This document shows, piece by piece, positions 15,229 through 32,526 of a stretch of 34,719 nucleotides of DNA. Each line of letters starts with the position of its first letter. The first letter of the stretch is position 1. This DNA is from Terriglobales bacterium. GTDB taxonomy: Bacteria > Acidobacteriota > Terriglobia > Terriglobales > Acidobacteriaceae. Position numbers and translations under genes: made by a program. Under the pieces are notes generated by a model, which ran no database searches, was not told the DNA's origin, and worked only from the letters and a program-made list of their open reading frames with translations. Location: NCBI GenBank assembly GCA_035624455.1, contig DASPRM010000024.1, positions 1-34,719 of the forward strand. Direction: 5' to 3'.

Positions 15229-16322
15229 GGTATAGTTCGGGAGAAGACCGGCAAATCCGCAGAGTCGTAACTACTGTGCCAAAGTCCAGACTGTCTTTAC
15301 GTAGAAAGCAGCGAGTCTGCTTGCTAACTATCCTGATGTCGTCTGCTTGCCTCTGGTTTCCAGTCCGGCGAGCTGCCGCGCAAGTGTTGGACAAATCCGT
15401 GCTTAACAGCACCGTGTTGCTCACCTACGAAGTTGAAGCTACCAGTGAACCGAGCACCTCCTCCAAGGACCAGTCCCGAGGGCAAGGGGCGAGCCACGGC
15501 AGTGGCGGACCACTCGTAGTCCGGGGCACTGGATTCCTTATCTTCAGCGGGCTTGGCATCACCCATGGTCAGGTGTACCTAGTCACCAATCGACACATTC
15601 TGCCGCCCGAAGGAAAGAAGCAGGACATCAAAGTCCGCGTGGTGGTCGGTTCGCGTGAGGCTGGCAAGGAGGTAGAGAAGGTAGAAAACATCAGTGTTCC
15701 GGTCGTAGGAGATGATGGGAAGTACCTTTCCTCGGTGCGTCTTCACCGTGACCCGAGCACAGATGTGGCGGTCATTAACATTGCGCCGGCAGCTTTTGGC
15801 AACAAGTTCAGAGTTTTGATCGATGCGGTCCGTACAAAGAAATATCTGGATACATCCATGCTGGCTTCCTCGGAGACGATTGGTTCCCTGGGGGTGGGGG
15901 TGGGGTCACAAGTCTATCTGCTGGGATATCCCGCCGCTATCTTTGATCCGCGAAATGTATCGCCGGTTCTGCGAGTTGGGGTTATCTCCACCGATCCCAA
16001 GCAGGGATTCGATTTCAACGAGGAAGTCCGGCGAATTGTAAATGCTCCGGAGCATATCAACGGATTCCTGATAGACGCAAACATCTATCCCGGGTCGAGT
16101 GGCAGCTTGGTGGTAGTAGATCCGAATGCTGCTAAGTGCGACTGCCAGTCCAGCAGCGCTTCGGCGTCAAAGCCTCCCGAGAAGCGCCTGCAAATCCTGG
16201 GAATCGTGGCTGGTTCCATTCCTATTTATGATGTCGGTCTCAAGTCCTATGAACGCATCGGGCTGGGCATCGTTTACTCTGCGGACACCATCCGCGAAGT
16301 AATCAACAGCTTCGAACGTTAG
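15225..16322 (+). CDS. Trypsin-like serine protease, secreted
   Basis: The 365-aa frame starts at an ATG inside the stop of the giant gene (ATGA, 4-base overlap), indicating translational coupling. A long basic n-region precedes a hydrophobic segment (VCLLTILMSSACLWF) and a cleavage site near RRAAAQ. The protease domain shows the S1 triad: H124 in VTNRHIL, D180 in DPSTDVAVINI and S292 in YPGSSGSL, with GTGFLI before the His. This is the DegP/trypsin_2 type of domain, but no PDZ domain follows. An insert with CDC and Ser/Ala/Lys lies near residues 303-325. The product probably acts outside the cytoplasm; the co-translated giant protein is the obvious candidate substrate or partner (inference). 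Confidence 0.87.
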   Translation: MRYSSGEDRQIRRVVTTVPKSRLSLRRKQRVCLLTILMSSACLWFPVRRAAAQVLDKSVLNSTVLLTYEVEATSEPSTSSKDQSRGQGASHGSGGPLVVRGTGFLIFSGLGITHGQVYLVTNRHILPPEGKKQDIKVRVVVGSREAGKEVEKVENISVPVVGDDGKYLSSVRLHRDPSTDVAVINIAPAAFGNKFRVLIDAVRTKKYLDTSMLASSETIGSLGVGVGSQVYLLGYPAAIFDPRNVSPVLRVGVISTDPKQGFDFNEEVRRIVNAPEHINGFLIDANIYPGSSGSLVVVDPNAAKCDCQSSSASASKPPEKRLQILGIVAGSIPIYDVGLKSYERIGLGIVYSADTIREVINSFER

Positions 16323-17913: not shown

Positions 17914-19395
17914 TCATCTCGGCGCGGCCCATCCCGCAGGCACATAAGTCTCCACCTTGGGTCCGGTGGTGGCGGCCTCACTCCAGACTCGTGCCGCCTC
18001 GAGCCGCACGCGCGTGCCTTGACCGGGAGAACTGGTGACCTTGACCTCGGCCCCATAGGCCGCTGCGATCGACTTCACAATCGACAATCCCAGGCCGCTT
18101 CCACCGGTTTCGCGAGAGCGGGCTTTGTCAACGCGGTAGAAGCGATCGAATATGTGCGGAAGGGCCTCGTGGGGGATGCCAATCCCGGAATCGGAAATCT
18201 CAAGAAAAGCCTTGGGACCATCAGATCCTACGGTAACTTCGATAGTTCCACCTTCAGGAGTGTATTTGATTGCGTTGTCCAACAGATTGACCACAATCTG
18301 CTTGAATCTTGAGGGATTGCCCTGGACCAGCACGTCGGCTTGCAATTTACTTACAAGCGCCAGCCCTTTTTCTTCCACCATCAATTGCATCTGGTCCGCA
18401 GTGGATTTGACTAGTTCCCCGAGATCGATCACCTCCTTAGGAAGGCTGTCATCTCCGGCATCCAGACGCGAGAGCGCCAGCAACTGATCGATGATGCGTG
18501 TGAGCCGTTCAACCTCTTCCAGGCAATTGCCGGCGATTTCCTGCACACGTGATGCCGGGCTCGAGTGCCGCATCAGCGATTCCAGTTCCCCACGGATAAT
18601 CGTCAGCGGCGTGCGCAGTTCATGGGAGACGTCTGCCGAGAAGCGGCGTATATGCTGGAACGCGTCTTCCAGGCGGTCGAGCATTCGATTCAGGGCCCGC
18701 GACAAGTGCTCGAGTTCGTCGCCAGTCGGCGCCACTGGCAAGCGTTCCTCGGCCCTCAGCAAGCTGATCTGCTCCGCTGTTTCAGTGATGATTCGCACCG
18801 GCACCAGCGCCTTCTTCATTACGATGAATCCGCCCAAGCAGGCCGCTGCCAGCATCACCGGCAGCCCGATCCCGAACAGCAACAGCAATCCATTCAGAGT
18901 AGAGCGGATCTGCTGATGCGTAGTGCCGATTTCGATCAGATAGCTCCAACCATCCTGAGCGCGATAGGGATAGGAATACACAAAGACGGGCAGCGAGCTT
19001 GTTTCAACTTCCCAGCTGAAGCCTGAATTCGCATGTAACCACTGCTGGATGGGCACGCCCACGATCCGGCTCGGATCGAAGCTGTGATCTGCGGGTGGCG
19101 CGGATTGGTATACGACGGAGCCATCGTTGCGGGTTACCCGAATCAGGCGGGAGTTGACCTCGGGAGCAAAGCTTTCCTCGATCTCCTCGGTAACGTAGCC
19201 GTTTCCCCGCGCGGCCGCATCATCCAGCAGCTTCTCGCCAATCGAGCGGGCATCGGCCGCGAGTGAGCTCCGCAAGTTCCACATCAGGTAACTGCGGAGT
19301 CCAGCGTAGATTCCAGCGCCAAAGAACAGGAAGGAGGCAGTAAAGATCCCTGCATACCAGCTGATCACTCGAAATCGCAAAGATCGGCGGTTCAT
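17914..19395 (-). CDS. Sensor histidine kinase, CusS-like
   Basis: This 493-aa protein has two transmembrane segments (residues ~10-32 and ~168-190) bracketing a ~135-residue periplasmic sensor region. A HAMP linker follows (~190-245), then a HisKA domain with FSADVSHELRTPL (phosphoacceptor H258), then an HATPase domain with the N box (NLLDNAIKYTPEGG, N374), G1 DSGIGI (402-407), F box and G2 GGSGLGL (431-437). The length and layout match heavy-metal-type (CusS/IrlS) kinases. Its ATG overlaps the stop of the response regulator gene (ATGA), so the pair is co-translated. The adjacent divergent efflux operon is the likely target. The signal is not readable from the sequence; no obvious Met/His metal-binding cluster stands out in the sensor region. 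Confidence 0.9.
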   Translation of the reverse strand: MNRRSLRFRVISWYAGIFTASFLFFGAGIYAGLRSYLMWNLRSSLAADARSIGEKLLDDAAARGNGYVTEEIEESFAPEVNSRLIRVTRNDGSVVYQSAPPADHSFDPSRIVGVPIQQWLHANSGFSWEVETSSLPVFVYSYPYRAQDGWSYLIEIGTTHQQIRSTLNGLLLLFGIGLPVMLAAACLGGFIVMKKALVPVRIITETAEQISLLRAEERLPVAPTGDELEHLSRALNRMLDRLEDAFQHIRRFSADVSHELRTPLTIIRGELESLMRHSSPASRVQEIAGNCLEEVERLTRIIDQLLALSRLDAGDDSLPKEVIDLGELVKSTADQMQLMVEEKGLALVSKLQADVLVQGNPSRFKQIVVNLLDNAIKYTPEGGTIEVTVGSDGPKAFLEISDSGIGIPHEALPHIFDRFYRVDKARSRETGGSGLGLSIVKSIAAAYGAEVKVTSSPGQGTRVRLEAARVWSEAATTGPKVETYVPAGWAAPR

Positions 19396-20072
19396 CCGTT
19401 GCCTGCCTCGCGAATCGTGTAGCCAACACCCCGCACGGTCTGAATCAGTTTTGGTTCGAAGCCTTCATCCACCTTATTGCGAAGATGACGCACGTAAACA
19501 TCGACAATGTTCGTGAGGCCGTCGAAGCTCTGGTCCCAGACATGTTCGATGATCATGTGGCGGGAGAGCACCCTTCCCGCATTCAGCATCAGATATTCCA
19601 GCAACGCATATTCCTTGCCGGTCAGGTCAATGCGCTTCCCGGAACGCTTGACCTGCTGGGTGAGGCGATCCAGTTCCAGGTCCGCAATTCGCGCTGAACT
19701 CGCCCGGCTGACGGGGCCGCGCCGCAACAATGCCTTGGTGCGGACCAAAAGTTCGGCAAAAGCGAAAGGCTTGGTCAGGTAATCATCCGCTCCAGCTTCG
19801 AATGTCAGGACTTTGTCGTGAACCGCGTCCCTGGCCGTCAAAACCAATACGGGTACATTTGCGTCCCGGCTTCGAATGCGCCTCAACACTTCGGCGCCGT
19901 CGACCCTCGGCAGCATCAGGTCCAAAATGATCAAGTCGTAGTGATAGCTGGAAGCCAGTTGCAGCCCTTTTTCCCCGTCTTCGGCACTGTCAACCGCATA
20001 TCGTTCGGCCGTCAGGCCTCGCACCACGAAGTCCCGTACTTTCGGTTCGTCTTCAACCAGCAAAATCCGCAT
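19392..20072 (-). CDS. OmpR/PhoB-family response regulator, CusR-like
   Basis: I place the start at the ATG at 20072, where MRILLVEDEPKVRDF begins the receiver domain; the frame extends upstream to 20168 but those residues are not receiver-like. The product is 226 aa. The receiver has D8/E9, phosphoacceptor D51 in LIILDLMLP, T79 in VLVLTARD and K101 in YLTKPF. The C-terminal winged helix runs from about residue 125, with LTGKEYALLEYLMLNAGRV and VYVRHLRNKVD, ending in TVRGVGYTIR. No strong ribosome-binding site is visible upstream. It is expected to bind tandem direct repeats; three TTCAT-like elements at 11-base spacing lie about 105-132 bases upstream of its start. Confidence 0.92.
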   Translation of the reverse strand: MRILLVEDEPKVRDFVVRGLTAERYAVDSAEDGEKGLQLASSYHYDLIILDLMLPRVDGAEVLRRIRSRDANVPVLVLTARDAVHDKVLTFEAGADDYLTKPFAFAELLVRTKALLRRGPVSRASSARIADLELDRLTQQVKRSGKRIDLTGKEYALLEYLMLNAGRVLSRHMIIEHVWDQSFDGLTNIVDVYVRHLRNKVDEGFEPKLIQTVRGVGYTIREAGNG

Positions 20073-20166
20073 GTGTGACAGAAACCCGATTCTGCACGTC
20101 CGAAGCTGGAGGATACCTGCTCCGGGTCCTGTGGACAGAATCATACCGCTGCCGGCAAGGTTGAAC

Positions 20167-20204
20167 ATGAATAGATTTTCATCCCTGATTCAGAAAAGGC
20201 TCAT
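20167..20204. promoter_or_regulatory. Candidate response-regulator binding repeats in the divergent efflux promoter
   Basis: TTCAT (20178-20182), TTCAG (20189-20193) and CTCAT (20200-20204) are direct repeats with an exact 11-base period. That geometry is typical of OmpR/PhoB-family dimers binding head to tail. ATGAA at 20167-20171 forms an inverted arm with the first repeat. The repeats lie in the 289-base gap between the two-component system and the TolC-like gene. Binding is inferred from spacing and context only. Confidence 0.45.
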
Positions 20205-20361: not shown

Positions 20362-21801
20362 GTGAAATACACATTGGTTTCTGTAAGTATCCTGGTTTCG
20401 ATTCTTCCACTCTCTCTGGCACAAACCACCGATCTGCGGAGTCTGGTGGCGAATTCTGCGGCTGTTCAATTGCAATTGCCCATCCCAGCGGCTCAAGCGG
20501 AACCTCAAATGCCGCCCGCAGCGACACAGACCGGCCCCGCGCCCCCTGATCCCGCGGTTCCCCCAACCCCCGGCGCGCCGCGTACCATTACTCTGAGCGA
20601 CGCCCTCGCGCTGGCGCGCGCCAACAATCCATTGCTTCGCGCCGCAATCACCGACGTGGGTGTGGCTCGCGAAGATCGTGTCCAGACTCGCGCTGCCCTG
20701 CTTCCGGCAATCAACTACACCACCCAGTATCTCTACACCGAAGGCAACGGAACACCCACCGGCGTGTTCATCGCCAACAACGCGGTTCATGAATATCTGA
20801 GTCAAGGAAACGCGCACGAGGTTTTGAATCTCGGTCCGGCGCAAATCGCTGCCTATCGCCGCTCGTCTGCGGCCCTGGCGTTGGCGCGTGCTAAGCAGGA
20901 GATCGCCTCACGCGGTCTGGTCGTTACTGTTGTTCAGGCCTACTACAGCCTAGTGGTTGCTCAACGCAAGTACGCCGACTCGCAGCAAGCTTTCTCCGAA
21001 GCCCAGCGATTTCTCAAGATTACTCAGGAACTTGAGAACGGCGGTGAGGTCGCGCATTCCGACGTGATCAAGGCTCAATTGCAGTTCAACGATCGTCAAC
21101 GCGATTTACGGGAAGCGAACCTAAATATCGAAAAGACGCGGCTGGCGCTTGCCGTAATGCTATTTCCAAACTTTGAGGAGAACTTCTCTGTCGTCGATGA
21201 CCTCCGACTGGCCCCCGCCCTACCCGGCTTTGACGAAGTCCAGAGAATGGGCGCTCAGAATAACCCTGACCTGCGGGCCGCGGTGTCGGCTCTGGATGTT
21301 GCAAATCGTGACGTGCAGATCGCCTGGGCAGCGCACCTGCCTACTCTTACCCTGGATGCCTGGTATGGAATCGATGCTGTCCATTTCGCTACCTACACCG
21401 GCCAAATTCAGAACCTGGGATATGCCGCCTCAGCAATGCTCACTATTCCGGTGTGGAGTTGGGGAGCCACCCAGAGCAAAGTGCGACAGGCGCAACTGAA
21501 GCGCGACCAGGCGCGCGTCGAACTGAGCTTTGCTCAACGCGAGCTGATCGCGAATCTCCGCACTTTCTATGCCGATGCGGATGCGGCTCGCAACGAACTC
21601 GAGACGCTGCGAAGCTCAGCCGAGTTGGCGGCCGAGAGCTTGCGCCTGACCACCCTGCGATACAGGGCTGGGGAAGCGACGGTGCTGGAGGTGGTGGACG
21701 CGCAGAATACTCTCGTGATGACGCGAGCCGCGTTCGACGACGCGCAGGTCCGTTATCGTGTGTCGCTTGCCAACTTGCAGACTATAACAGGGAGCTTCTG
21801 A
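20362..21801 (+). CDS. TolC-family outer-membrane efflux protein
   Basis: The 479-aa product starts at a GTG (20362) preceded by GGAG at 20351-20354. A signal peptide (KYTLVSVSILVSILPLSLAQ) is followed by a proline-rich linker of ~50 residues (PPDPAVPPTPGAP). Two OEP repeats then form the alpha-barrel and beta-barrel halves: TLSDALALARANNPLLRAA opens the first, and MGAQNNPDLRAAVSALDVA the second. The end, LRYRAGEATVLEVVDAQNTL with RYRVSLANLQTITG, is typical of the family. It is the first gene of the efflux operon, 16 bases before the adaptor gene. It should provide the outer-membrane exit duct for the RND pump encoded downstream. The long Pro-rich N-terminal linker is unusual. Confidence 0.92.
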   Translation: MKYTLVSVSILVSILPLSLAQTTDLRSLVANSAAVQLQLPIPAAQAEPQMPPAATQTGPAPPDPAVPPTPGAPRTITLSDALALARANNPLLRAAITDVGVAREDRVQTRAALLPAINYTTQYLYTEGNGTPTGVFIANNAVHEYLSQGNAHEVLNLGPAQIAAYRRSSAALALARAKQEIASRGLVVTVVQAYYSLVVAQRKYADSQQAFSEAQRFLKITQELENGGEVAHSDVIKAQLQFNDRQRDLREANLNIEKTRLALAVMLFPNFEENFSVVDDLRLAPALPGFDEVQRMGAQNNPDLRAAVSALDVANRDVQIAWAAHLPTLTLDAWYGIDAVHFATYTGQIQNLGYAASAMLTIPVWSWGATQSKVRQAQLKRDQARVELSFAQRELIANLRTFYADADAARNELETLRSSAELAAESLRLTTLRYRAGEATVLEVVDAQNTLVMTRAAFDDAQVRYRVSLANLQTITGSF

Positions 21802-21817
21802 TCGGTTGCGACCGCAA

Positions 21818-23110
21818 ATGAGCATGACAAAACACAAACGGTTGAAGCGGTCGCTTAAACGCACCATAGTCCCGCTGATCTCGGGTACGGCTGCCATTGT
21901 CCTGACGGCCTGTTCCCATGAACCAGCAGAGAAAGAACCGGTCGTAGCCGTACAAACAGCCCTGGCCGTACAGAAGCCCATCGAACAGGTGGTCTCGACT
22001 GAGGCAGTATTGTTTCCTCTCAAGCAGGCTGCCCTGACACCCAAGGTCTCCGCTCCGGTTCGCCAGTTCTTTGTGCAGCGGGGAGGTAAAGTTCACGCCG
22101 GCCAATTGCTGGCGGTGCTTGAAAATCGCGATCTGGCTGCCGCCACAGTAGAGAACAGAGGCGCATACGAGCAGGCCCAGGCGGCTTACGAAAGCGCTAC
22201 CAAGGCGACTCTTCCAGAGGAATGGCAAAAAGCTGAACTGGATGTGCAGGCCGCCAAGGACACTCTCGATGCCCAACAAAAGATTTATGAGAGCCGAAAA
22301 AATCTCCTTGCCCAAGGCGCCATCGCCCGCAAAGACGTCGATGCTGCCGAAGTGGCATACGTTCAAGCTCGCAATGCCTATGAGATCGCCCAAAAGCATC
22401 AGACCGCCCTGCAATCGGTTGGCAAACAGCAGGAGCTGAAATCAGCTGCCGGCCAATTGACCTCCGCCAAGGGCAAATACATGGGCTCTGAGGCTCAGTT
22501 CGGATACACCGAAATCCGCAGCCCCATCAGTGGCGTGATCACTGACCGGCCACTATATGCGGGAGAAATGGCCCCGGCTGGGACGCCTCTGATTACCGTG
22601 ATGGATACCTCCCAAGTCGTCGCCCGAGCTCATGTTCCGGAGGAGCAGGCTGCCTTGCTGAAACCAGGTGATCATGCGTCGATCACTGCCCCAGGGATCT
22701 CGGAACAAATTCCTGGCACTGTGACCATCGTCAGCCCGGCGACCGATCCCAACAGCACTACGGTTGAGATTTGGGTGCAAGCCGCAAATCCGGCTCAGCA
22801 ATTACGACCGGGCACTACGGTACAGCTATCGATCGTAGCGCAGCGAGTTGCGGATGCCACGGTGATACCGGCATCCGCTCTGCTGAAGTTGGCCAATGGT
22901 GGCGATTCGGTGATGCGCGTCGGGCCGGATCAGCGAGCTCATCAGCAGGAGGTTCAGGCGGCCATTCGACAGGGGAACGAAGTGCAGATCGTGTCTGGGC
23001 TGAAGGCGGGAGACCGCGTGGTGACCAACGGAGCTTACGGTTTACCAGACAACACTAAAGTCCAGTGGAACACGACCGCTGCCACTGAGTCGAAAGGCGC
23101 CGAACCCTGA
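21818..23110 (+). CDS. RND efflux periplasmic adaptor (membrane fusion protein), lipoprotein
   Basis: A TTG at 21806 is in frame, but I prefer the ATG at 21818 (430 aa); another ATG lies at 21824. The N-terminus is a lipoprotein signal with lipobox LTAC (VLTACSHEPAEKEP), so the adaptor is probably anchored by lipid in the inner membrane. Domains in order: a barrel-sandwich half with VRQFFVQRGGKVHAGQLLAV, a long helical hairpin (about residues 100-220), the second lipoyl half with IRSPISGVITDRPLYAGEM, a beta-barrel with VPEEQAALLKPGDHASI, and a membrane-proximal domain with IVSGLKAGDRVVTNGAYGL. It lies between the TolC-like and RND genes with 1-base spacing to the latter, so coupled expression is expected. 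Confidence 0.92.
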   Translation: MSMTKHKRLKRSLKRTIVPLISGTAAIVLTACSHEPAEKEPVVAVQTALAVQKPIEQVVSTEAVLFPLKQAALTPKVSAPVRQFFVQRGGKVHAGQLLAVLENRDLAAATVENRGAYEQAQAAYESATKATLPEEWQKAELDVQAAKDTLDAQQKIYESRKNLLAQGAIARKDVDAAEVAYVQARNAYEIAQKHQTALQSVGKQQELKSAAGQLTSAKGKYMGSEAQFGYTEIRSPISGVITDRPLYAGEMAPAGTPLITVMDTSQVVARAHVPEEQAALLKPGDHASITAPGISEQIPGTVTIVSPATDPNSTTVEIWVQAANPAQQLRPGTTVQLSIVAQRVADATVIPASALLKLANGGDSVMRVGPDQRAHQQEVQAAIRQGNEVQIVSGLKAGDRVVTNGAYGLPDNTKVQWNTTAATESKGAEP

Positions 23111-23111
23111 G

Positions 23112-26100
23112 ATGAGCGACAATCCCAAGCCGAAAACAGAGGCGCGGGTCGAGGAAGCTCCGCCTCGAACCTACTGGTTTGCACGATTCTCCGGCCCGGT
23201 CATCTTCCTTATTATTGCGGCCGCGCTCATCGGCGTTTATCTCGCATTCAGTATCCCCATCGCGGTTTTTCCGTCGACGAATTTTCCCCGCATTGTCATC
23301 GGCGTCGATAACGGGGTGATGCCGATCGACCAGATGCTGGTTACCATTACCCGTCCGCTCGAAGAAGCGGTGAACAGCGTCCCCGGTTTGCAGCAAGTGC
23401 GTTCCACAACCAGCCGCGGCTCCGCCGAAATTAATCTGTTCTTCGACTGGAACGTCGACATGTTCCGGACACTACAACTGGTCGACTCGGCTGTGGCGCG
23501 TGTCCAGTCGTCCCTGCCGCCAACTGCGAAGATAGTAAGCAATCGGCTCACTTTTGCTTCCTTTCCTATCCTTGGCTACAGCCTGACGTCCGATTCTGTT
23601 CCCCAATCGCAGCTCTGGGAGCTCGCAACCTATGACCTGAAGCCGCGCCTGAATCGCTTAAATGGCGTATCGACGGTGATCGTTCAGGGAGGCCAGGTTC
23701 CCGAGTTCGAGATCACTCCCGATCCCGCTAAGCTTCTGGCTGCCAGCACCACGGTTACGGAGATTCTCGATGCTGTCCGGCGCACCAACCTCATCGACTC
23801 GCCCGGACTGCTCGAGCAAAATCACCAGTTGTATCTGGGCTTGATCAACGGACAAGTTCGCGATCCCGCGCAGATTTCCAATATCGTGATCAAGTCAACG
23901 CAGGCGGGCATTCCCATCCACATTGGAGATGTCGCTTCGGTCAGCCAGTCGGTCAAACCCCAATACACGATCGTTACCGCCAACGGAAAGCCGGGGGTAC
24001 TGCTCAACATCAATCGTCAACCGGATAGCAACACCGTAGCGGTTGCCGACGCAGTCCACGCCGAGGTCGAAGACATTCGCCGCTCACTCCCGCCCGGTAT
24101 TCAGATTCAGTCGTTTTACGATCAATCTACGATCGTGCGCGAATCGATCAAGAGCGTGCGGGATGCCATCCTGCTCGGCCTCGTGCTGGCCTCGGTAATT
24201 CTTGTGCTATTCCTTCGCGATTGGGGCAGCTCCGTCGTGGCTGGATTGGTGATTCCGGTTACGATCCTCATCACCCTCATCTTTCTGAAAGTCCTCGGCG
24301 AGAGTTTCAATCTGATGACTCTGGGCGGCCTGGCCGCCGCCGTAGGCCTGGTGATCGACGACGCCATCGTTGTTGTCGAGAACATCACTTTGCATCGCGA
24401 TGCCGGGCAGTCTCGTCTGGAGGCCATTCACAGCGCACTTCACGAAATCACTATTCCCCTTGTTGGCTCGACTCTCACCCCGGTTGTCGTCTTCCTTCCC
24501 TTGATTTCGATTACCGGCGTTACCGGGACCTTCTTCCGCGCCCTGGCAGTCACCATGGCGGTGGCATTGTTCAGTTCGCTGGCGCTGGCGCTCACCTGGA
24601 CCCCAAATTTGAGCCAGTATTTTGTGCGCAGGAGAGCCGCCGCTCCACCTGAGGACATTTTGAAAGCCCTCTCCGCCTCCTCATCGGAGACCGAACGCCT
24701 GCTGGCGGCCGAAGAAGCGTCAATGCGGGGCTTTTTTGGCCGCGTCATCAGCTTTTATGAGAAATGGGTGAAGCGCGCCCTCGAGCATCCTCGCTGGCTG
24801 GCCGGACTGGCGGCAGGCTTGATCGTGATCTCTTACCTGTCCTATCACGCGCTTGGCTCCGACCTTTTGCCGGAGATGGATGAAGGCGGCTTTGTCATCG
24901 ACTACATCATGCCCGCGGGCAGCTCGCTGCAGGAGACCAATCGCGTTCTCACACACATAGAGCAAATGCTTCGCGGAATACCCGAGGTTGAAAGCACCTC
25001 GCGCCGCACCGGCCTGCAGTTAGGGCTCGCTGCGGTGACGGAAGCCAACACTGGGGACATCTCCGTAAAGCTGAAAGGCAAGCGGGATCGAGACATCGAA
25101 GAAGTGATCTCCGATGTGCGTGCCAAGATTGCCGCACAGGAGCCTGCGATTAATGTCGAATTCATCCAGGTGCTGCAAGACATGATCGGCGACCTGACCA
25201 GCGCACCCGAGCCCATCGAAATCAAGTTGTTTTCTGCCGATCCTGAACTGCTTCGCCAGTGGGCGCCGCGGCTAGCTGATTCGATTCGCAAGATCCCTGG
25301 TGTAGTGGATGTGCTAGACGGGATTGAGAACACAATCAGCGGCCCGGCAGTGATGTTCCAGGTAAATCCGCTCATCGCCGCGCGCGCCGGATTTACGCCC
25401 GAGGAAGTTGCCACGGACGCTGCCGCAATTCTGGAAGGCGAGCCTGCCGCGCTTCCGGTCATCGTCAACGATCGCGCCTACACGATTCGCGTGCGTTTTC
25501 CGGAGGGGAATCGGACTTCACTCGACGCGATGAAGAACACGTTGCTGACCAGCAGCACCGGCAAGACTGCAACCCTAGGCTCTCTAGCCAGCCTTAGCGA
25601 ACTCCCGGGACAGACTGAGATCAGACGCGAGAATCTTCAGCGCGACGTGGCGGTTACCGCTCGCTTGGAAGGACGTGATTTGGGCAGCGGTATTGCGGCG
25701 GTGAAGAAAGCCGTGGCTGGCCTTCACCTGCCATCGTCGATCCGGGTTCAATACGGTGGAACTTACGAATTGCAGCAGAGCTCCTTCCGGGATCTGGTGC
25801 TAGTTCTATTTCTCGCGCTGATGCTGCTTTTTCTCGTCCTGCTGTTTGAATTCCGCACCTTCTCGGCTCCCTTGGCCATACTCGCTTCGGCATTGCTATC
25901 GACGTCGGGCGTATTTTTTGCCCTGCTGATCACCCGCACTACCTTCAACATCGCTTCGTTTATGGGGCTGATCATGGTTGTCGGCATCGTTGCCAAGAAT
26001 GGAATCTTGTTGCTCGATGCTGATCAGAAGTTCCGAGCAGCCGGCTTTTCAGCAGAAGAAGCCATGATTCAGGCAGGACGCCGCAGACTGCGACCGATTG

Positions 26101-26285
26101 TGATGACCGCGCTGGCATCGGTGGCTGGGATGCTGCCGCTCGCGCTGGCGCTGGGCGCCGGATCCCAGATGCTGCAGCCTCTGGCAATCGCCGTTATCGG
26201 AGGGATTCTCATCTCCATGGTTCTTTCGCTAATCGTAACCCCGGCGGTGCATTTCTACTTAACGCGCGATCGACAGGCAGCGTGA
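23112..26285 (+). CDS. RND-family inner-membrane efflux pump (HAE-like)
   Basis: The 1057-aa length and architecture fit an RND proton-antiport pump: TM1 near residues 29-48, a large periplasmic loop, a TM2-TM6 cluster with FLRDWGSSVVAGLVIPVTIL, a second loop, and TM8-TM12 at the C-terminus. TM4 reads GGLAAAVGLVIDDAIVVVEN, with the adjacent Asp pair of the proton relay found in AcrB-type pumps. Heavy-metal pumps such as CusA have a different TM4 (VDAAIVMIEN), so I favour an organic substrate despite the CusRS-like neighbours. ATG follows the adaptor stop by one base; no good ribosome-binding site is visible, suggesting coupling. With the two upstream genes it makes a complete tripartite system. 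Confidence 0.93.
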   Translation: MSDNPKPKTEARVEEAPPRTYWFARFSGPVIFLIIAAALIGVYLAFSIPIAVFPSTNFPRIVIGVDNGVMPIDQMLVTITRPLEEAVNSVPGLQQVRSTTSRGSAEINLFFDWNVDMFRTLQLVDSAVARVQSSLPPTAKIVSNRLTFASFPILGYSLTSDSVPQSQLWELATYDLKPRLNRLNGVSTVIVQGGQVPEFEITPDPAKLLAASTTVTEILDAVRRTNLIDSPGLLEQNHQLYLGLINGQVRDPAQISNIVIKSTQAGIPIHIGDVASVSQSVKPQYTIVTANGKPGVLLNINRQPDSNTVAVADAVHAEVEDIRRSLPPGIQIQSFYDQSTIVRESIKSVRDAILLGLVLASVILVLFLRDWGSSVVAGLVIPVTILITLIFLKVLGESFNLMTLGGLAAAVGLVIDDAIVVVENITLHRDAGQSRLEAIHSALHEITIPLVGSTLTPVVVFLPLISITGVTGTFFRALAVTMAVALFSSLALALTWTPNLSQYFVRRRAAAPPEDILKALSASSSETERLLAAEEASMRGFFGRVISFYEKWVKRALEHPRWLAGLAAGLIVISYLSYHALGSDLLPEMDEGGFVIDYIMPAGSSLQETNRVLTHIEQMLRGIPEVESTSRRTGLQLGLAAVTEANTGDISVKLKGKRDRDIEEVISDVRAKIAAQEPAINVEFIQVLQDMIGDLTSAPEPIEIKLFSADPELLRQWAPRLADSIRKIPGVVDVLDGIENTISGPAVMFQVNPLIAARAGFTPEEVATDAAAILEGEPAALPVIVNDRAYTIRVRFPEGNRTSLDAMKNTLLTSSTGKTATLGSLASLSELPGQTEIRRENLQRDVAVTARLEGRDLGSGIAAVKKAVAGLHLPSSIRVQYGGTYELQQSSFRDLVLVLFLALMLLFLVLLFEFRTFSAPLAILASALLSTSGVFFALLITRTTFNIASFMGLIMVVGIVAKNGILLLDADQKFRAAGFSAEEAMIQAGRRRLRPIVMTALASVAGMLPLALALGAGSQMLQPLAIAVIGGILISMVLSLIVTPAVHFYLTRDRQAA

Positions 26286-26575: not shown

Positions 26576-29500
26576 CTATTCATTTCCCCCGCCCTCGCCT
26601 GCCTTCAAATCCTGCTCAGGCCGAATCTCTGGCAGGTTGGCCTGCCGCAGTTGCCGATTTAATTCCTGCAAATCTGCACCCTTCAGATCGTTCCAGCTCT
26701 TCTCTACGGCAAAAAGACTGCGTTGGGCGACTTCGACAGCATCCACTTGCGCTATGGTGGGGCCCACATCCGCCTGGCCTACGCTGCCGTAAAGCGCATA
26801 GATGTCGCTGTTGACCTGCTCGAGGTTCGGCTCCGCCGGACTATTCGCGCCCGAATCCTTCGGACCTTCCACAACCGCCGTTAGCTTTTTCTCAAAAGCC
26901 CGAATCGATTCACCCTGTGTTCCGCCCACATCTTTGGGCAGTTTTTCGAGTTGACGAGTCGCGGAGCGAGCTTCCAGGAGCGCCCGCGAGCTGTCCGAGA
27001 GCATGGAAGCCAGCCTCATTTGGAGCTTGAACTGCTGCTCCAGGTCGGCCATCGGCGTCTTGACCCGCGGATCCATCTTCAGCGTCAGCGGCTGGGCGTA
27101 AGAACGACCACGGACTGTGAGACGCACCGTGTACTGCCCTGGCAGAGCCAGCGGCCCCAGTGGGACTCGTGGCGTGTCGTGAGGAGTGGCAGCAATCGGG
27201 TATTCGTGACGCGCAGAGAGCGGCGCAGGGTAATGCAAATCCCACACCCAGCGGTGCATGCCAGGCATAATGGGAAGGCTCTGCGGCATGCGGATCCAGT
27301 AGAGCGGGATCAGTTGTTTGTCGAGCTCCTCTTCTGTGATTTCGGGAGTGTCCTTGCTCGAATAGCGGCGCACTGACTTGCCTTGTGAATCAACGATTTC
27401 CAATACTGCGTCATCAGCCGCTGCCAGGAAATAATCGAGGATAGCCCCAGCCGGCGGATTCTGCCCCGCGGGCTCATCGGTCGGCAGGGGAGTATCCGTA
27501 TTGGTGTTGCGCCGTACAAGATAGGCAGTCTGCGGCTGGAAGAGATAGGCATACTCATGCATTAGCTGGCTGCTGAGCTGTCGCAGCGGCGTGATGTCGT
27601 CCAGAATCCAGAAGGACCTTCCGTGTGTGGCAACAATCAGATCATCGTCGTGAATCCACAAATCACGGGCGGAACTGCGCGGCAGGTTCAACTGCAACGA
27701 CTGCCAATGGTCGCCCTCATCAAAAGAAACCCACACGCCCGTTTCCGTTGCCGCAAACAGTAACCCTTTGCGCACCGGATCTTCGCGTACAGCATTGACA
27801 GGGGCATTTTCCGGAAGTCCAGAAACGATCCGCTGCCACGTCTTTCCTGCGTCATGTGTGCGGTAGAGATAAGGACGCAGATCGTCAATGCGCAGGCGGC
27901 TCACCGAGACGTAGGCTGTGTCGTCATCGAAACGCGAGGCGGCGATCTGGGTTACTTTGCTCCACGGAGTCAGCTCTGGAGGTGTGATGTCCTTCCAGTT
28001 CTTTCCGCCGTCTCGCGTCCGCCAAACCAGGCCATCGTCGGTGCCTGCCCAAAGAATATTGACGTCGCGGAAAGAAGGAGCCAGCGCATAGATCGCCCCG
28101 CGCTGCTTATCTGCTTTGGGGTCCTTCGCAGCCATCTTTCCCAGGCTGGAGGGAACGCCCGGATGCTGCCGCGATAAATCGCTGCTGATTGTTTCCCACG
28201 TCCTTCCACCATCGCGCGATATGAACAACACATTCGCCGCGTAGTACAGGATATGAGGATCGACGGGCGAGAACATGATCGGCTCGGTGCGCTCGGTGCG
28301 ATATGTTTCACCACGAATGGGAATGGGCGTAACGTTTTCTACCTGGCCCGTGCTCCAGTGAAAGCGGCTGACCTCGTTTCTCCCGGCCCCATACACGATC
28401 TCTGGATCGAGCGGGTCCGGAGCCGCATAGCCGTACTCAATGACTCCCACCGGATGCCAATCGCGAAACGTGATTTCCCCATCATTGCCGCGGCTCAAAA
28501 TGCACACTGAGCCACTCTCCTGCTGTCCTCCGCAGACCCGGTAGGGAAACGTATTGCTGGTGGTCACGTGATAAAGCTGCGCGGTAGGCTGGTTGTACCA
28601 GGAACTCCAGGTCTGTCCGCCGTTCACGCTGACGATGGCCCCCTGGTCGGCGACCAGAAGAATAATGTTGGGATTGTTCGGATTGATCCAAATGTTCTGG
28701 TAGTCGTCCCCGCCGGGAGCGCCGCGGATGCTGGTCCAGGTTTTGCCACCGTCGGTCGAGCGCACAGTGACAATGCTGGTGCTGTACACCACATCCGGAT
28801 TCGTGGGATCCACCTTGATCATCGGCAGATCGCCGCCTCCGATCTTCATCGCCGGACGCGGATCGCTGGTCGCGTTGTACCAGTTCTCGCCTCCGTCATC
28901 GGAGCGATAGAAGCCCAGCCCCTTGCCGGACCCATAGGTGCTGCTCGTGGTGGTGGAGAATACGGTGTACAACCGATTAGGCTGACTGCTGGCAATAGCT
29001 ACGTGAATCTGCACCAGATCCGCAGGCAACCCATTTTTCAACGGCCTCCAGGTTGTGCCTCCGTCGGTTGACTTGAAAAGTCCTCCTCCGATTCCGCTGT
29101 ATTCGTTGCCGTCCTCCCAAGGGCCCAGGCGGGCTTCCCAAAGCGAGGCGTAAACAATTCTTGGATTCGAGGGATCGATTTCGACATCCGCGCCGCCCGT
29201 GTTCTCGTCCTTGTAGAGCACCTTTTGCCAGGTTTGGCCGCCGTCGGTGGAGCGGAAAATGCCTCGCTCGGTGTTAGGTCCATAAGGATGTCCTAGAACA
29301 GCGGCAAATACCCGGTTAGGATCGTGTGGATCAATCGCAAGCGCGGGAATCTGTTGCGCATCTCGCAGTCCAAGCTGAGTCCAAGTCTTTCCCCCATCGA
29401 TGGATTTGTAGATCCCATCTCCAACCGACAGGTCGGGGCGATGCAAGCCTTCTCCGCTGCCGACATAGAGAGTGTTGGGATCAGACGGCGCTACGACAAT

Positions 29501-29788
29501 GTCGCCGATCGATTGTGTAGGCTGGGCATCAAAAATCGGAGACCAAGTTCGACCGTAATCCTCCGTTTTCCAGACCCCGCCATTGACTACGCCGATGTAG
29601 AACACGTTTGGCTGGCTGGGCACGCCGGTAGCTGCCCGGGTGCGTCCGCCGCGAAAGGGCCCGATCATGCGCCAGCGCATCTCCTGATACAGGCTCTCGG
29701 GGTACTGTTGCGCAGCAACTGCAAGCGGGATCAGGTAGGCGAGGGCAGAGCAAAACACAAGCCAGAAACGGCAATTCCTTGGAATCAC
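26576..29788 (-). CDS. Secreted Asp-box (BNR/sortilin-like) beta-propeller protein
   Basis: The 1070-aa product starts at a GTG (29788) with GGAG 6 bases upstream and a signal peptide cleaved near AVAAQQ. Residues ~35-720 contain about eleven Asp-box motifs (SxDxGxTW), such as SIDGGKTW, STDGGQTW, SRDGGRTW and THDAGKTW, expected to form one or two multi-bladed propellers as in VPS10/sortilin and sialidase-type proteins. After a linker with PAGAILDYFL and MHRWVWDLHYP, a beta domain (GQYTVRLTV) and a helical C-terminal region follow. This architecture recurs in Acidobacteria and Bacteroidetes as putative exported glycosyl hydrolases, but I see no proven catalytic residues, so enzymatic activity is uncertain. 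It lies 104 bases downstream of the malectin regulator on the same strand, suggesting joint control. Confidence 0.87.
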   Translation of the reverse strand: MIPRNCRFWLVFCSALAYLIPLAVAAQQYPESLYQEMRWRMIGPFRGGRTRAATGVPSQPNVFYIGVVNGGVWKTEDYGRTWSPIFDAQPTQSIGDIVVAPSDPNTLYVGSGEGLHRPDLSVGDGIYKSIDGGKTWTQLGLRDAQQIPALAIDPHDPNRVFAAVLGHPYGPNTERGIFRSTDGGQTWQKVLYKDENTGGADVEIDPSNPRIVYASLWEARLGPWEDGNEYSGIGGGLFKSTDGGTTWRPLKNGLPADLVQIHVAIASSQPNRLYTVFSTTTSSTYGSGKGLGFYRSDDGGENWYNATSDPRPAMKIGGGDLPMIKVDPTNPDVVYSTSIVTVRSTDGGKTWTSIRGAPGGDDYQNIWINPNNPNIILLVADQGAIVSVNGGQTWSSWYNQPTAQLYHVTTSNTFPYRVCGGQQESGSVCILSRGNDGEITFRDWHPVGVIEYGYAAPDPLDPEIVYGAGRNEVSRFHWSTGQVENVTPIPIRGETYRTERTEPIMFSPVDPHILYYAANVLFISRDGGRTWETISSDLSRQHPGVPSSLGKMAAKDPKADKQRGAIYALAPSFRDVNILWAGTDDGLVWRTRDGGKNWKDITPPELTPWSKVTQIAASRFDDDTAYVSVSRLRIDDLRPYLYRTHDAGKTWQRIVSGLPENAPVNAVREDPVRKGLLFAATETGVWVSFDEGDHWQSLQLNLPRSSARDLWIHDDDLIVATHGRSFWILDDITPLRQLSSQLMHEYAYLFQPQTAYLVRRNTNTDTPLPTDEPAGQNPPAGAILDYFLAAADDAVLEIVDSQGKSVRRYSSKDTPEITEEELDKQLIPLYWIRMPQSLPIMPGMHRWVWDLHYPAPLSARHEYPIAATPHDTPRVPLGPLALPGQYTVRLTVRGRSYAQPLTLKMDPRVKTPMADLEQQFKLQMRLASMLSDSSRALLEARSATRQLEKLPKDVGGTQGESIRAFEKKLTAVVEGPKDSGANSPAEPNLEQVNSDIYALYGSVGQADVGPTIAQVDAVEVAQRSLFAVEKSWNDLKGADLQELNRQLRQANLPEIRPEQDLKAGEGGGNE

Positions 29789-29892
29789 GCAGTTCTCCGT
29801 CGAAATCCCTTGGTGGCGCCACAGGATAAATCAAAGGAGGAAAAGAGAGGAGGGTTGTTGCCATCCCGGATCAGCCAGGGCACTCTCGTTAC

Positions 29893-31437
29893 CTACTCTG
29901 GCAGAATTTCGATGGCGCTGACTGTTGCGTAATCTCTGACGGGAACGAATTCGAACAGTAGCTTGCCTTGCGAGTTAGGCTCCAGCCCCGTGATCTTGCG
30001 CGTCAGGAGCTGGTTTTCCGCCGCATTTTTCAAAAGGTCTAAATCTCGCACCACCACTCGCCCATTGCAAACCACGTTGAACACCCGGCTACCCAGGCCA
30101 CCTGCGGCTTCATGCGGTGGACCCACGTAGCTGTCGCGATTACCGACCCCAAAGCGCCGCTCCACAAAGTGGAGCACTGCTGTGTATCGTCCCGGCGGTA
30201 CGGGGATGGCGTAAGAGAAGTTTCCCCAACGCTCGCTCTCGTACAATTCCTGGTCATCGGCGCCCGCCACCGATCCTGCACGAACCGCCAACTGCCCTCC
30301 TTTGAAATACTGGTCCGGAGCCCACCAGCGGCTGTCGTCGGAATAGTAAGAGCTGTCGCGCATAACGATACGAACGGGACGGATTCGGCCGCGCACTCCC
30401 GGGACAATCTCAATTCCCGACAGCATTCCGCGTCCTCCGTGCAGGGAGGAGACGTTCAAGTGCAGCAGGCCGTCTCCCGCCGGGGTAACGTCAACCAGCA
30501 CCTTCTCGTCGGCGGTCCTGCTGCCGCCAGCATCGGCCACCACGTCAAAATCATTGAGCAGCGTTTTGCCGTTGACGTTGATGGCCATAATGCGGCTGCC
30601 CTCGCCGCCGCCCGAATCCTCAGGACCGTAATAAGTTTCGGCAAAGTGCAGCCGCAGCTCATAATTGCCGGGCTTCAGTGGAATGTCATAGCTGAAATCG
30701 CCCTGGCGGCTGGAGCGGTAAATTTCCGGATCAAGCGTCCGCCAGATATGCCTCACGGGACTACGAACCAGCATTCCGCCGGAAAAGTACCGGTCGGCGC
30801 TCCATACTTTTCCGGCACGATCAACATAGTTGTGGGTACTCCCTGCAAGAATTCGGACCTCGTCGCCGACTGGCAATCCGATTGGAGCCTCACTCACAGC
30901 GGACGCGGACCTTTGGGGATATGCCGGCACAGTTGTTTTCGTCCTGGGAAGAAAGATCAGAAGGCCGATACCAACCACAACAGAGGCAATGGCGGCTGGA
31001 ATGAACCAGCGCCACACGTTTGACCTCCATCTGACGGCATCGCCCGCTACAGGTTTTTGAGAATCCGGCACGGGCTTGGTTGCCTGGGAAGACTCCCCCG
31101 CGACTGCAAACTGTGGCACGTACTGTCCTACGGGAATTGAAATGTGGAGAGTGTGACCTGCGCCGTCTCCCGCGTAGTACTCTGCTAAGCGCCTACGAAG
31201 CCGGTTGGCTTGTACCCGGACAATAGAATCGGAATCCTGGTCGAAGGAGGCGCCGCGGCCAAAAACCTCTACCGCAATGGAGTACTCCTTAATCTGCTCA
31301 CCTTCACCCGCGAACCACTTCTCGCAGAGATAGGAAAGCAAGTGCGAGAGGGCAGGCGCGCGGACAAACGCCTCTGACTGCAGAACTCTCTGGAGTTCAG
31401 CTCGTTCCGCTTCCACGGACTCTTGAAGGACAGCCAT
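29893..31437 (-). CDS. Membrane-bound regulator-like protein with two malectin domains
   Basis: The 514-aa product starts at an ATG with AGGA ~8 bases upstream. Residues ~10-110 form a cytoplasmic domain (LSHLLSYLCEK, IKEYSIAVEVFG, SIVRVQANRLRRRLAEYY, then HTLHISIPVGQYVPQF). This domain is common in Acidobacteria, fused to TPR or WD40 parts, and resembles a ToxR-like winged helix with an Arg-rich helix. One transmembrane segment lies at ~143-163 (WRWFIPAAIASVVVGIGLLI). Two malectin-type carbohydrate-binding domains follow (~194-348 and ~358-513), with YxSSRQGDFSYDIPLKPGNY and YESERWGNFSYAIPVPPGRY at equivalent places. The order implies an external sugar sensor wired to a cytoplasmic DNA-binding domain, without a kinase. 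DNA binding and ligand are inference. The propeller gene downstream is a likely target or partner. Confidence 0.83.
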   Translation of the reverse strand: MAVLQESVEAERAELQRVLQSEAFVRAPALSHLLSYLCEKWFAGEGEQIKEYSIAVEVFGRGASFDQDSDSIVRVQANRLRRRLAEYYAGDGAGHTLHISIPVGQYVPQFAVAGESSQATKPVPDSQKPVAGDAVRWRSNVWRWFIPAAIASVVVGIGLLIFLPRTKTTVPAYPQRSASAVSEAPIGLPVGDEVRILAGSTHNYVDRAGKVWSADRYFSGGMLVRSPVRHIWRTLDPEIYRSSRQGDFSYDIPLKPGNYELRLHFAETYYGPEDSGGGEGSRIMAINVNGKTLLNDFDVVADAGGSRTADEKVLVDVTPAGDGLLHLNVSSLHGGRGMLSGIEIVPGVRGRIRPVRIVMRDSSYYSDDSRWWAPDQYFKGGQLAVRAGSVAGADDQELYESERWGNFSYAIPVPPGRYTAVLHFVERRFGVGNRDSYVGPPHEAAGGLGSRVFNVVCNGRVVVRDLDLLKNAAENQLLTRKITGLEPNSQGKLLFEFVPVRDYATVSAIEILPE

Positions 31438-31746
31438 TCGCGGGTTCCTGTCTAGAGTCTAGCTCGCATGTAACCGTGAAGAGTGAGGTAACAGCCGCCG
31501 TAACCCTCGGAAAGGGCCAGAATGGGACGGTCAGCACTAAGTTAGTGTTTACAGTCTGCTACAGCGTGGGTCTGTGAGCATTGGCCACAAGTCCCCCCTA
31601 AAGCGTCTGCCTTTAACAGTGTGGTAGCGGCTATAACGTTGTGTACTGCCTTGTCTTCTGCAATAAGGAGTTCGGCTGTGAGCAGGCTTTCCGACCCAAT
31701 AGACAAAGCCCGGTTCGGTGGCGCAACTCCGGCCAAGGAGGCATAT
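31438..31746. promoter_or_regulatory. Divergent promoter region with a perfect palindrome
   Basis: This 309-base gap separates the malectin regulator (-) and the TPR gene (+). It contains CACTAAGTTAGTG at 31535-31547, a perfect palindrome with 6-base arms, and CTAGAGTCTAG at 31452-31462 close to the regulator's start. Either could be an operator. AAGGAGG just before 31747 is the ribosome-binding site of the TPR gene. No small gene was seen. Confidence 0.4.
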
Positions 31747-32526
31747 ATGCGGAGACTATGGCTTATTGGAATCCTCTTGGCTCTTTCCGCTGCTTTGCGG
31801 GCTGACAATTCCGGCAGTTCAGCATCGGAGTCCCAGCCACCCAGCCTGCCAATGTCGCAAATGACGGTTGCACAACTGGAAGCCAGAGGGGACATCCTGC
31901 GTATGCAGAAGAACTACGAAGAATCAATTCGATACTACAATGCCGGCCTGCAGAGACAACCGAAGAATGCCGTCTTATACAACAAGATTGGAATCGCGGA
32001 GCTGCAGATTGGCCAGCTTAGTTCTGCGGAGTACCATTTCACTCGCGCGGTGAAATTCGATAGCAAATATGCTCAAGCCTTCAACAACATTGGCGTAATT
32101 GCCTACATGCAGAAGAATTACGGACGGGCGGTGAAATATTACAAAAAGGCACTGGCTTTGAGCGAAGCAAATGCCTCTATCCACAGTAATTTAGGCACTG
32201 CCTGGTTCGCCCAGAACAAGCTTGAGCGTGCAATCGCAGAATACACGCGTGCCTTGGAGTTGGATCCTGAGGTCCTATTGCGGTCCACCCACGGCGGCGT
32301 TTCTGCCAAGATTTCATCTCCCGAAGATCGCGCCAAATATTCTTATGTGTTGGCTAAGTTGTTCGCAAAACGTGGCGATATCGAACGTTGTCTCGAATGC
32401 CTGAGAAAAGCTAAGGAAGAGGGCTTTCACAATCTGACGGACGTTTATAGAGACGAAGAGTTCGCTACTATCCGGCAAGATGCACGACTGGCCGAACTGA
32501 TCCCACCGCCTGCGGTCAACAAGTAG
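31747..32526 (+). CDS. Secreted TPR-repeat protein
   Basis: The frame opens at 31621, but the start at 31747 is favoured by AAGGAGG upstream and by the signal peptide MRRLWLIGILLALSAALRA that then begins the 259-aa product. Four tetratricopeptide repeats follow between residues ~40 and 175, e.g. QKNYEESIRYYNAGLQRQP, YAQAFNNIGVIAYMQKNYGR and LERAIAEYTRALELDP. The C-terminal ~75 residues, including CLECLRKAKEEGFHNL and the end DARLAELIPPPAVNK, resemble another degenerate helical repeat. It is a predicted periplasmic or secreted scaffold with no catalytic motif. A strong terminator follows the stop. It is divergent from the malectin regulator. Confidence 0.86.
   Translation: MRRLWLIGILLALSAALRADNSGSSASESQPPSLPMSQMTVAQLEARGDILRMQKNYEESIRYYNAGLQRQPKNAVLYNKIGIAELQIGQLSSAEYHFTRAVKFDSKYAQAFNNIGVIAYMQKNYGRAVKYYKKALALSEANASIHSNLGTAWFAQNKLERAIAEYTRALELDPEVLLRSTHGGVSAKISSPEDRAKYSYVLAKLFAKRGDIERCLECLRKAKEEGFHNLTDVYRDEEFATIRQDARLAELIPPPAVNK

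Follow-up and report, generated by a model that had tools for sequence, protein, structure and literature searches.

Regulators of the CadC/ToxR type consist of a cytoplasmic N-terminal winged helix, a single transmembrane helix and a C-terminal periplasmic sensor, and they have no phosphoryl acceptor domain (PMC5430869, PMC5936718). The topology of the CadC DNA-binding domain has been described as b1-b2-b3-b4-a1-a2-a3-b5-b6-b7 (PMC5430869). SusR of the Bacteroidota is a membrane protein with a periplasmic sensor and a cytoplasmic DNA-binding part, is often encoded beside genes for TonB-type glycan uptake, and has direct repeats, spaced 67 or 77 bp, as predicted operators; SusR itself was reported to be unique to Bacteroidetes (PMC3878776). 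Here, we describe a gene of a Terriglobales bacterium (Acidobacteriota) that lies at 29893-31437 on the minus strand of a stretch of 34,719 nucleotides (contig DASPRM010000024.1 of assembly GCA_035624455.1), which is called the window throughout. According to the list of open reading frames (ORFs) and the translation, it starts with ATG and encodes 514 amino acids, including two malectin domains. With moderate confidence, we propose that the product, here called the regulator, is a membrane-spanning one-component transcription regulator that acts on phased direct repeats, controls its own gene and the divergent neighbour, and is governed by a ligand in the periplasm, which is probably a glycan.

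Like the CadC/ToxR-like proteins, the regulator has a predicted N-terminal winged helix, one transmembrane helix, a C-terminal sensor and no phosphoryl acceptor domain. Unlike CadC, its N-terminal domain (N-domain) is modelled without the four N-terminal strands and has no Trans_reg_C match, and its sensor is a tandem malectin. Its candidate site consists of several GTTAM words on one strand; for CadC, in contrast, a head-to-head arrangement that makes few specific contacts was modelled (PMC5430869). A predicted periplasmic sensor with a cytoplasmic DNA-binding part, a frequent TonB-type neighbour and direct repeats are features in common with SusR. However, the DNA-binding domain of SusR, a protein compared by description only, is reported to be C-terminal, unlike that of other regulators, and here it is N-terminal; malectin is not mentioned in the SusR account (PMC3878776). 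The original prediction had called a direct glycan-to-DNA route unusual; such a route remains part of our proposal, but SusR provides a precedent for one protein that spans the membrane (PMC3878776). Judged from these comparisons, the regulator would best be read as a CadC/ToxR-like design with a SusR-like role. With the plant CrRLK1L receptors FERONIA and ANXUR1/2, which were the best Foldseek matches, it shares a tandem malectin-type ectodomain. These receptors also feed a cytoplasmic output through one transmembrane helix, but the output is a kinase and the chain order is opposite to that of the regulator, for which a Pfam scan of the whole protein revealed no kinase family. The malectin modules of bacterial beta-glucuronidases are parts of an enzyme, whereas those of the regulator, recognized by PF11721 score and fold, are joined to the predicted winged helix. 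The regulator was filed neither as OmpR-type nor as CrRLK1L, because defining features of these classes were lacking. In the open-access library that was searched, no account of such a regulator was found; the papers retrieved dealt with the bean rhizosphere (malectin and Acidobacteria mentioned once each), a Bacteroides surface glycan-binding protein, pollen tubes, and straw decomposition by Bacteroidota and Firmicutes.

The layout that had been recognized originally, i.e. an N-domain that ends in HTLHISIPVGQYVPQF, one transmembrane helix and two malectin domains, was confirmed by the ORF, by hydropathy and by PF11721. The Pfam scan yielded PF11721 (Malectin) in two stretches, with 127.4 bits versus a cut-off of 23 (E 6.7e-37), and the two stretches were also present in 7/7 relatives scanned with Pfam. 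The sole match in the NCBIfam scan was a malectin-bearing enzyme model, far below its cut-off. The full-length AlphaFold2 (AF2) model reached a pLDDT of 77.6, with values below 50 in the linker. Hydropathy revealed a single transmembrane-like segment between the N-domain and the malectins of the window protein; with the threshold used, exactly one such segment was found in 60 of 68 relatives, two in 5 and none in 3. The N-domain would be located in the cytoplasm and the malectins in the periplasm: lysine and arginine residues around the helix were more numerous on the N side in 37/68 relatives and on the C side in 12/68, which is a positive-inside tendency alone.

The regulator belongs to a family that is widespread in its class. 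Whole-protein matches at E <= 1e-40 were found in 78 of 399 class genomes and 46 of 136 genera, some of the 78 comprising the malectin part only or being truncated at contig ends. A single open frame with matches to the full-length profile as well as to that of the N-domain was found at 68/68 loci examined and at 27/28 held-out loci (95 in all). These results, together with the malectins in the seven scanned relatives, show that the gene is not a chance ORF. The 68 loci consist of the window, L033-L039 from a scan of the phylum and L126-L185 from a scan of the class; they were taken from the best matches and are thus a non-random sample, and some are bounded by the edge of a contig. Because L038 and L039 are nearly identical, L039 was excluded from the operator counts, which left 67 regions. 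L032 and L128 represent one contig (same length and place) and were counted once. The held-out set comprised 28 loci, 27 with the gene (L211 is without it); the upstream sequences of L197 and L215 were too short, which left 25 regions. Gene calls throughout were ORF picks of at least 150 amino acids and not curated annotation.

The N-domain was modelled with AF2 on an alignment of 30 relatives. The model (pLDDT 94.7, pTM 0.87) contains five helices (2-19, 22-25, 28-42, 51-57, 72-89), followed by a beta-hairpin (strands 97-100 and 109-112). Helices 28-42, 51-57 and 72-89 and the hairpin are candidates for the three-helix core, with its recognition helix, and the C-terminal wing of an OmpR/PhoB-type domain. 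In a VIA structure comparison with 141 chains, OmpR/PhoB-type DNA-binding domains occupied 8 of the 10 top rows, with Z 5.7-7.2. The top seven rows (SaeR, PhoB, CssR, Rra) had Z 6.2-7.2 over 77-91 residues and a root-mean-square deviation (rmsd) of 3.1-5.2; the values were Z 7.2 and rmsd 3.2 over 86 residues for SaeR, 6.5 and 5.2 over 91 for PhoB, and 6.3 and 3.1 over 77 for CssR. The VIA table covers part of the winged-helix families, and the absence of a family from it excludes nothing. When the 30 relatives were scanned singly, 11 matched Trans_reg_C (PF00486) at E <= 1 (best 3.4e-5), and any other family was limited to at most 3 of them; one full-length relative scored 15.1 bits versus the curated cut-off of 26.2. 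An hhalign comparison of the N-domain alignment with 17 Trans_reg_C domains from the window's genome gave a probability of 71 and E 3.7e-5 over 65 columns, which cover the last long helix and the wing. The N-domain is thus predicted to be a winged helix that is nearest to the OmpR/PhoB-type DNA-binding domains, with a weak but significant kinship to Trans_reg_C. As the VIA comparison, PF00486 in the relatives and hhalign agree, and helices replace the N-terminal strands of CadC, it is called a diverged winged helix, which may work like an OmpR-type domain yet is not filed as one. The regulator-like N-terminus postulated at the outset is in congruence with this model, and a fold other than that of a DNA-binding domain did not appear.

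GTTAC repeats were spotted by eye upstream of the genes in the window's clade, and the word was then defined from counts over all 67 regions. Among words in the 350 bp upstream of the regulator genes, compared with 393 upstream regions of other genes at these loci, GGTTA, CGTTA, GTTAC and GTTAA ranked at the top (p 1.6e-16 to 4.7e-19). The half-site [CG]GTTA[AC] occurred 191 times in the 67 regions versus 46.1 ± 6.4 times in dinucleotide shuffles (maximum of 200: 63), an approximately fourfold excess, and at least two copies were present in 51/67 regions. Because the word was derived from these same regions, the in-sample counts are optimistic. Therefore, the held-out regions were analyzed with word and region length fixed beforehand: 59 half-sites were found in 25 regions versus 17.5 ± 4.4, with similar spacings. 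Relatedness was rejected as an explanation, since 98 half-sites versus 24.3 ± 4.8 remained in the 35 regions whose proteins are less than 50% identical. A general promoter feature was likewise rejected, as 132 half-sites versus 124.7 ± 9.0 were counted in 396 control upstream regions, where no more than four spacings on the same strand fell within the range. Six barrel promoters distant from any N-domain gene contained 3 sites versus 2.1, which is too few for a control.

Same-strand spacings of the half-site cluster at 9-12, 20-24, 30-34 and 41-44 bp, with a period of about 10.7-11; scores for this phasing are descriptive only, because pairs of spacings within one region are not independent. 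Direct repeats in phase with the helix are the form expected of OmpR/PhoB-type domains, and the simplest account would therefore be that members of the family bind their own promoter region at these candidate sites. The intergenic stretch 31438-31746, which had been singled out for a DNA-binding assay, does contain a candidate operator common to the relatives, as judged from word enrichment and phasing.

Another line of evidence is the pairing with a neighbouring gene. At 33 of the 68 loci, the next gene upstream encodes a divergent TonB-type outer-membrane barrel, typically of about 1200 amino acids, whereas a divergent barrel lies upstream of only 5 of 350 other genes at the same loci. In the held-out loci, a divergent barrel was found at 16/27. 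The criterion was the next ORF upstream for the main set and a start within 1.2 kb upstream for the held-out set, divergent in both cases. The barrels were recognized with a hidden Markov model built from six of them, and PF25183 and a carboxypeptidase-regulatory domain were verified on those six. Further placements were one ORF in between at 3 loci and a barrel directly downstream on the same strand at 6 (one of them among the 33), so that a barrel accompanies the regulator, all placements together, at 41/68 loci. Barrels are common genome-wide, with 22 in the window's genome and up to 142 candidates elsewhere (25 of them were scored), but this abundance is too low to explain the pairing.

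Another 17 loci have other divergent neighbours, ten of which were scanned. They include PF00756 esterases in three cases, a GH1 protein, a GH16 protein with four malectins and a malectin/fn3 protein; the rest are ROK, DUF4832 and BNR/sortilin proteins and one without a family. The malectin-bearing neighbours are the GH16 protein at L142 (8943-12398, four malectin stretches) and a large fn3 protein at L180 (8802-13043, two stretches). A GH9 gene lies downstream of one relative whose divergent neighbour was scanned. Genes for GH3, GH43 and a pectate-lyase-like protein were found near the L037 regulator, DUF2961 near that of L038 and GH10 near that of L036. The genes behind the barrel were scanned at ten loci: TPR genes were found at 5, while one locus has GH30, one a ricin-type lectin, one an NHL protein and 2 no known family. 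The neighbours named in the original prediction, a propeller gene beside the regulator and a divergent TPR gene, were verified with ORFs and Pfam. The conserved co-occurrence that it called for holds for the barrel and, within the window's clade, for the TPR gene, but not for the propeller. The latter (BNR/sortilin type, 1070 amino acids, 26576-29788) is on the same strand as the regulator gene, 104 bp downstream, and it was rejected as a functional partner because it is not conserved beside the relatives, including those of the window's clade: among the direct neighbours at the 68 loci, there was one propeller relative besides that of the window, on the opposite strand (L149), and a short BNR protein at L178.

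In the VIA comparison of the sensor, the tightest matches were single-domain, with the malectin modules of bacterial beta-glucuronidases at Z 21.5 and rmsd 1.6 over 146 residues. Malectin 2 (model range 351-514) matched the module of the B. uniformis beta-glucuronidase with Z 21.0 and rmsd 1.6 over 143, and malectin 1 (187-353) matched human malectin with Z 17.5 and rmsd 2.7 over 155, whereas plant malectin pairs gave Z 18.3-19.7 and rmsd 7.4-7.9. The sugar-binding residues of Xenopus malectin are given as Tyr67, Glu87, Tyr89, Tyr116, Phe117 and Asp186, and the set of human malectin is partly different (PMC13335976). Glu87, Tyr89, Tyr116 and Phe117 were placed on the regulator via structure alignments, the index shift being worked out from residue names; aromatic residues were scored as kept, and so was His at 428. 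For malectin 1, the alignment has a gap at the counterpart of Tyr89, and residue 245 was used for this position, following malectin 2. All four positions are kept in malectin 2 of 45/68 relatives; a further 12 keep three of them, and 11 keep two. The window protein keeps three (E402, W404, F429). As the pocket residues are kept in malectin 2 of most relatives and mostly not in malectin 1, malectin 2 would be the likelier site for a ligand, presumably a sugar.

Several results weigh against the proposed reading. For the N-domain, all VIA Z values are below 8, a level at which the likeness may reflect a merely common arrangement, and are not decisive alone, with ScpB winged helices close behind at 6.1. 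The window protein and its N-domain have no match to PF00486 at the cut-off of 26.2 bits, and in the Pfam scan the N-domain matched only RE_endonuc, below the cut-off (E 0.12). A Foldseek search of the PDB with the N-domain returned 39 matches, none at E <= 0.001, and a profile search of solved structures with its alignment remained empty up to E 10. Where CadC-type domains have four N-terminal strands, the model has helices 2-19 and 22-25. For the operator, no half-site was found in 10/67 in-sample and 9/25 held-out regions. For the pairing, the divergent-barrel label is weakly clustered on the tree of 67 regulator proteins (18 changes versus a shuffled mean of 22.7, as low in 19/500), a quick tree with SH-aLRT support alone, and no barrel was found among the examined neighbours in the window's clade (0/10). 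For the sensor, a Tyr of the animal malectin pocket is replaced by R428 in the window protein, and the pocket of malectin 1 is lost, with 0 or 1 of the four residues kept in 60/68 relatives. The plant ANXUR tandem malectins, which have no sugar site, bound none of the sugars tested (PMC6038381).

The results on the sensor lead to the alternative that survives best, although we regard it as rather unlikely: the DNA-binding switch would be the same, but the tandem malectin would sense an envelope protein, such as the TonB barrel or the TPR protein, and not a free sugar. In plants, a RALF peptide is bound jointly by the FERONIA ectodomain and a co-receptor. For the full-length model, FER/ANX ectodomains filled the top nine Foldseek rows (E 9.5e-19 to 3.3e-16), including one from a FER-RALF23-LLG2 complex, and the ANX malectins, the lost pocket of malectin 1, R428 and the pairing with an outer-membrane barrel gene all fit a protein ligand. 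However, at least three of the four tested residues are kept in malectin 2 of 57/68 relatives, the beta-glucuronidase modules fit tighter than the plant pairs, and esterases and glycoside hydrolases are found among the neighbours.

It is considerably less probable that the GTTAC/GTTAA repeats belong to another regulator and that the N-domain has a different cytoplasmic role, e.g. in protein-protein signalling. The modest fold match in the VIA comparison would be in agreement with such a role, and so would the presence of the N-domain at the head of proteins that, by eye, resemble soluble TPR proteins and the annotation of some plasmid copies as adenylate cyclase. However, the repeats follow the regulator gene irrespective of the type of neighbour: 107 half-sites were counted in 33 barrel-type regions (25.7 ± 5.4 in shuffles), 34 in 10 regions of the window's clade (5.9 ± 2.4) and 50 in 24 others (13.5 ± 3.8). 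In addition, other genes at the same loci show no excess, and helix-phased direct repeats are what would be expected of a domain of the OmpR/PhoB type.

Similarly improbable is an envelope-stress or cell-wall sensor in the window's clade, away from glycan uptake, that controls a non-cytoplasmic TPR protein when it senses the envelope polysaccharide of its own cell; the regulator does belong to a distinct clade of 10 members (SH-aLRT 100) with a relative of the divergent TPR gene in 7/10, no barrel among the examined neighbours of any, and an additional clade-specific box in 9/10, but a gene resembling those of glucuronoyl esterases lies downstream of the L134 regulator, on the other strand, and a TPR gene does not signify a separate role, because such genes also come after the barrel at 5 of the 10 barrel-type loci scanned.

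For the membrane-spanning regulator with a glycan ligand, which we prefer, the following mechanism can be envisaged. The cytoplasmic winged helix would bind same-strand GTTAC/GTTAA repeats, spaced by whole helix turns, in the intergenic region that the regulator gene has in common with its divergent target, and it would thereby control both genes. The periplasmic tandem malectin would sense a ligand, most likely an oligosaccharide, with malectin 2 as the likelier site. In many relatives, this might be an oligosaccharide from a polymer that is imported via the TonB-type barrel. In the window's clade, the ligand is perhaps an envelope glycan, which is proposed because the partner there is a TPR protein. 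Ligand binding may alter the dimer or its orientation via the single helix, as proposed for CadC, with a sign of regulation that we can only infer.

A broader reading is put forward more tentatively. The N-terminal winged helix may define a large regulator superfamily of Acidobacteria, and elsewhere of rhizobia, which would give these bacteria an equivalent of the SusR/HTCS/ECF systems that control TonB-dependent uptake in Bacteroidota. One module that reads phased GTTAC-type repeats would have been swapped onto different periplasmic sensors, the tandem malectin being the glycan reader and an unnamed domain of about 250 amino acids being apparently common. The N-domain profile matched 65/396 phylum genomes at E <= 1e-5, with one copy in the window's own genome. 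Upstream of 32 N-domain relatives with other C-terminal parts, the excess of half-sites was smaller (37 versus 15.3 ± 3.9).

The N-domain was also observed in other contexts. Twenty loci (L087-L106, a non-random selection) encode malectin-free N-domain proteins, many of them with a helix and the unnamed C-terminal domain of about 250 amino acids; a TonB-type barrel is directly divergent at 11/20, adjacent on the same strand at 3, separated by one gene at 1 and not found in these positions at 5. By eye, the N-domain starts proteins that resemble soluble TPR proteins (L018, L025, L030) and is fused to an NB-ARC/STAND ATPase-like part at L011 (G125:C1:2971052-2974375). TPR and NB-ARC-like proteins are usual places for winged helices of regulators. 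Sequence matches occurred in 277 of 72,556 plasmid records, mostly from Rhizobium and Sinorhizobium (e.g. L186, NZ_CP050087.1 105557-120141), with 36-50% identity among the 40 matches listed; where annotated, the proteins are called adenylate cyclase, TPR, membrane or hypothetical protein. The idea that the N-domain is exclusive to this protein or phylum was rejected on the basis of the matches in phylum genomes and plasmid records.

The features of the locus are compiled in the table. A promoter/terminator scan of 29700-31900 yielded no terminator-like site and two promoter-like sites, both within the regulator gene. Past the TPR gene and a SpoIIE-phosphatase gene, the C-terminal piece of a TonB-type barrel (PF25183, 33878-34717) is encoded on the strand of the regulator and is cut by the contig end. 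Farther away in the window, a 2694-amino-acid ORF (7144-15228) contains many Ig-like repeats (Cep192_D4, HYDIN/ASH, DUF1573) and PKD domains and is followed by a trypsin-like peptidase gene (15225-16322). Consecutive genes for an outer-membrane efflux protein, an HlyD-type adaptor and an AcrB-type pump (20362-26285) adjoin a response-regulator gene (19392-20168).

Table. Coordinates of the regulator gene, its predicted domains, the presumed target and the candidate operator elements in the window
Feature	Position	Strand	Basis
Regulator gene, transmembrane tandem-malectin, 514 aa	29893..31437	-	ORF, translation; class-wide matches
N-terminal winged-helix domain, ~residues 9-112, predicted cytoplasmic DNA-binding output	31102..31413	-	AF2, VIA, PF00486 in relatives, hhalign
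Transmembrane helix, ~residues 145-163	30949..31005	-	Hydropathy; AF2 helix 146-160; transmembrane-like segment in 65/68 relatives
Malectin domain 1, ~residues 192-346, pocket residues mostly lost	30400..30864	-	PF11721; VIA; site residues
Malectin domain 2, ~residues 353-513, pocket kept in most relatives	29899..30381	-	PF11721; VIA; site residues
Presumed target: divergent gene for a TPR protein of 259 aa, N-terminus resembling a signal peptide (by eye)	31747..32526	+	Pfam; relative divergent in 7/10 clade members
Candidate operator half-site GGTTAC	31470..31475	-	Family-wide enrichment and phasing
Candidate operator half-site TGTTAC, one base off [CG]GTTA[AC]	31488..31493	-	Upstream-region reading
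Candidate operator half-site GGTTAC	31500..31505	-	Upstream-region reading
Clade-specific box CAACGTTATAGCCGCTAC	31624..31641	-	Core pattern in 9/10 clade regions, 1/58 others

Acidobacteria are soil degraders of plant polymers. If the proposal is true, a sensor, a promoter site and a likely target would be named for about 95 loci at once, and polymer sensing by Acidobacteria would become testable with one purified domain and one DNA piece of 300 bp. It would also mean that a bacterial membrane receptor has a tandem malectin input, a device that plants use in FERONIA.

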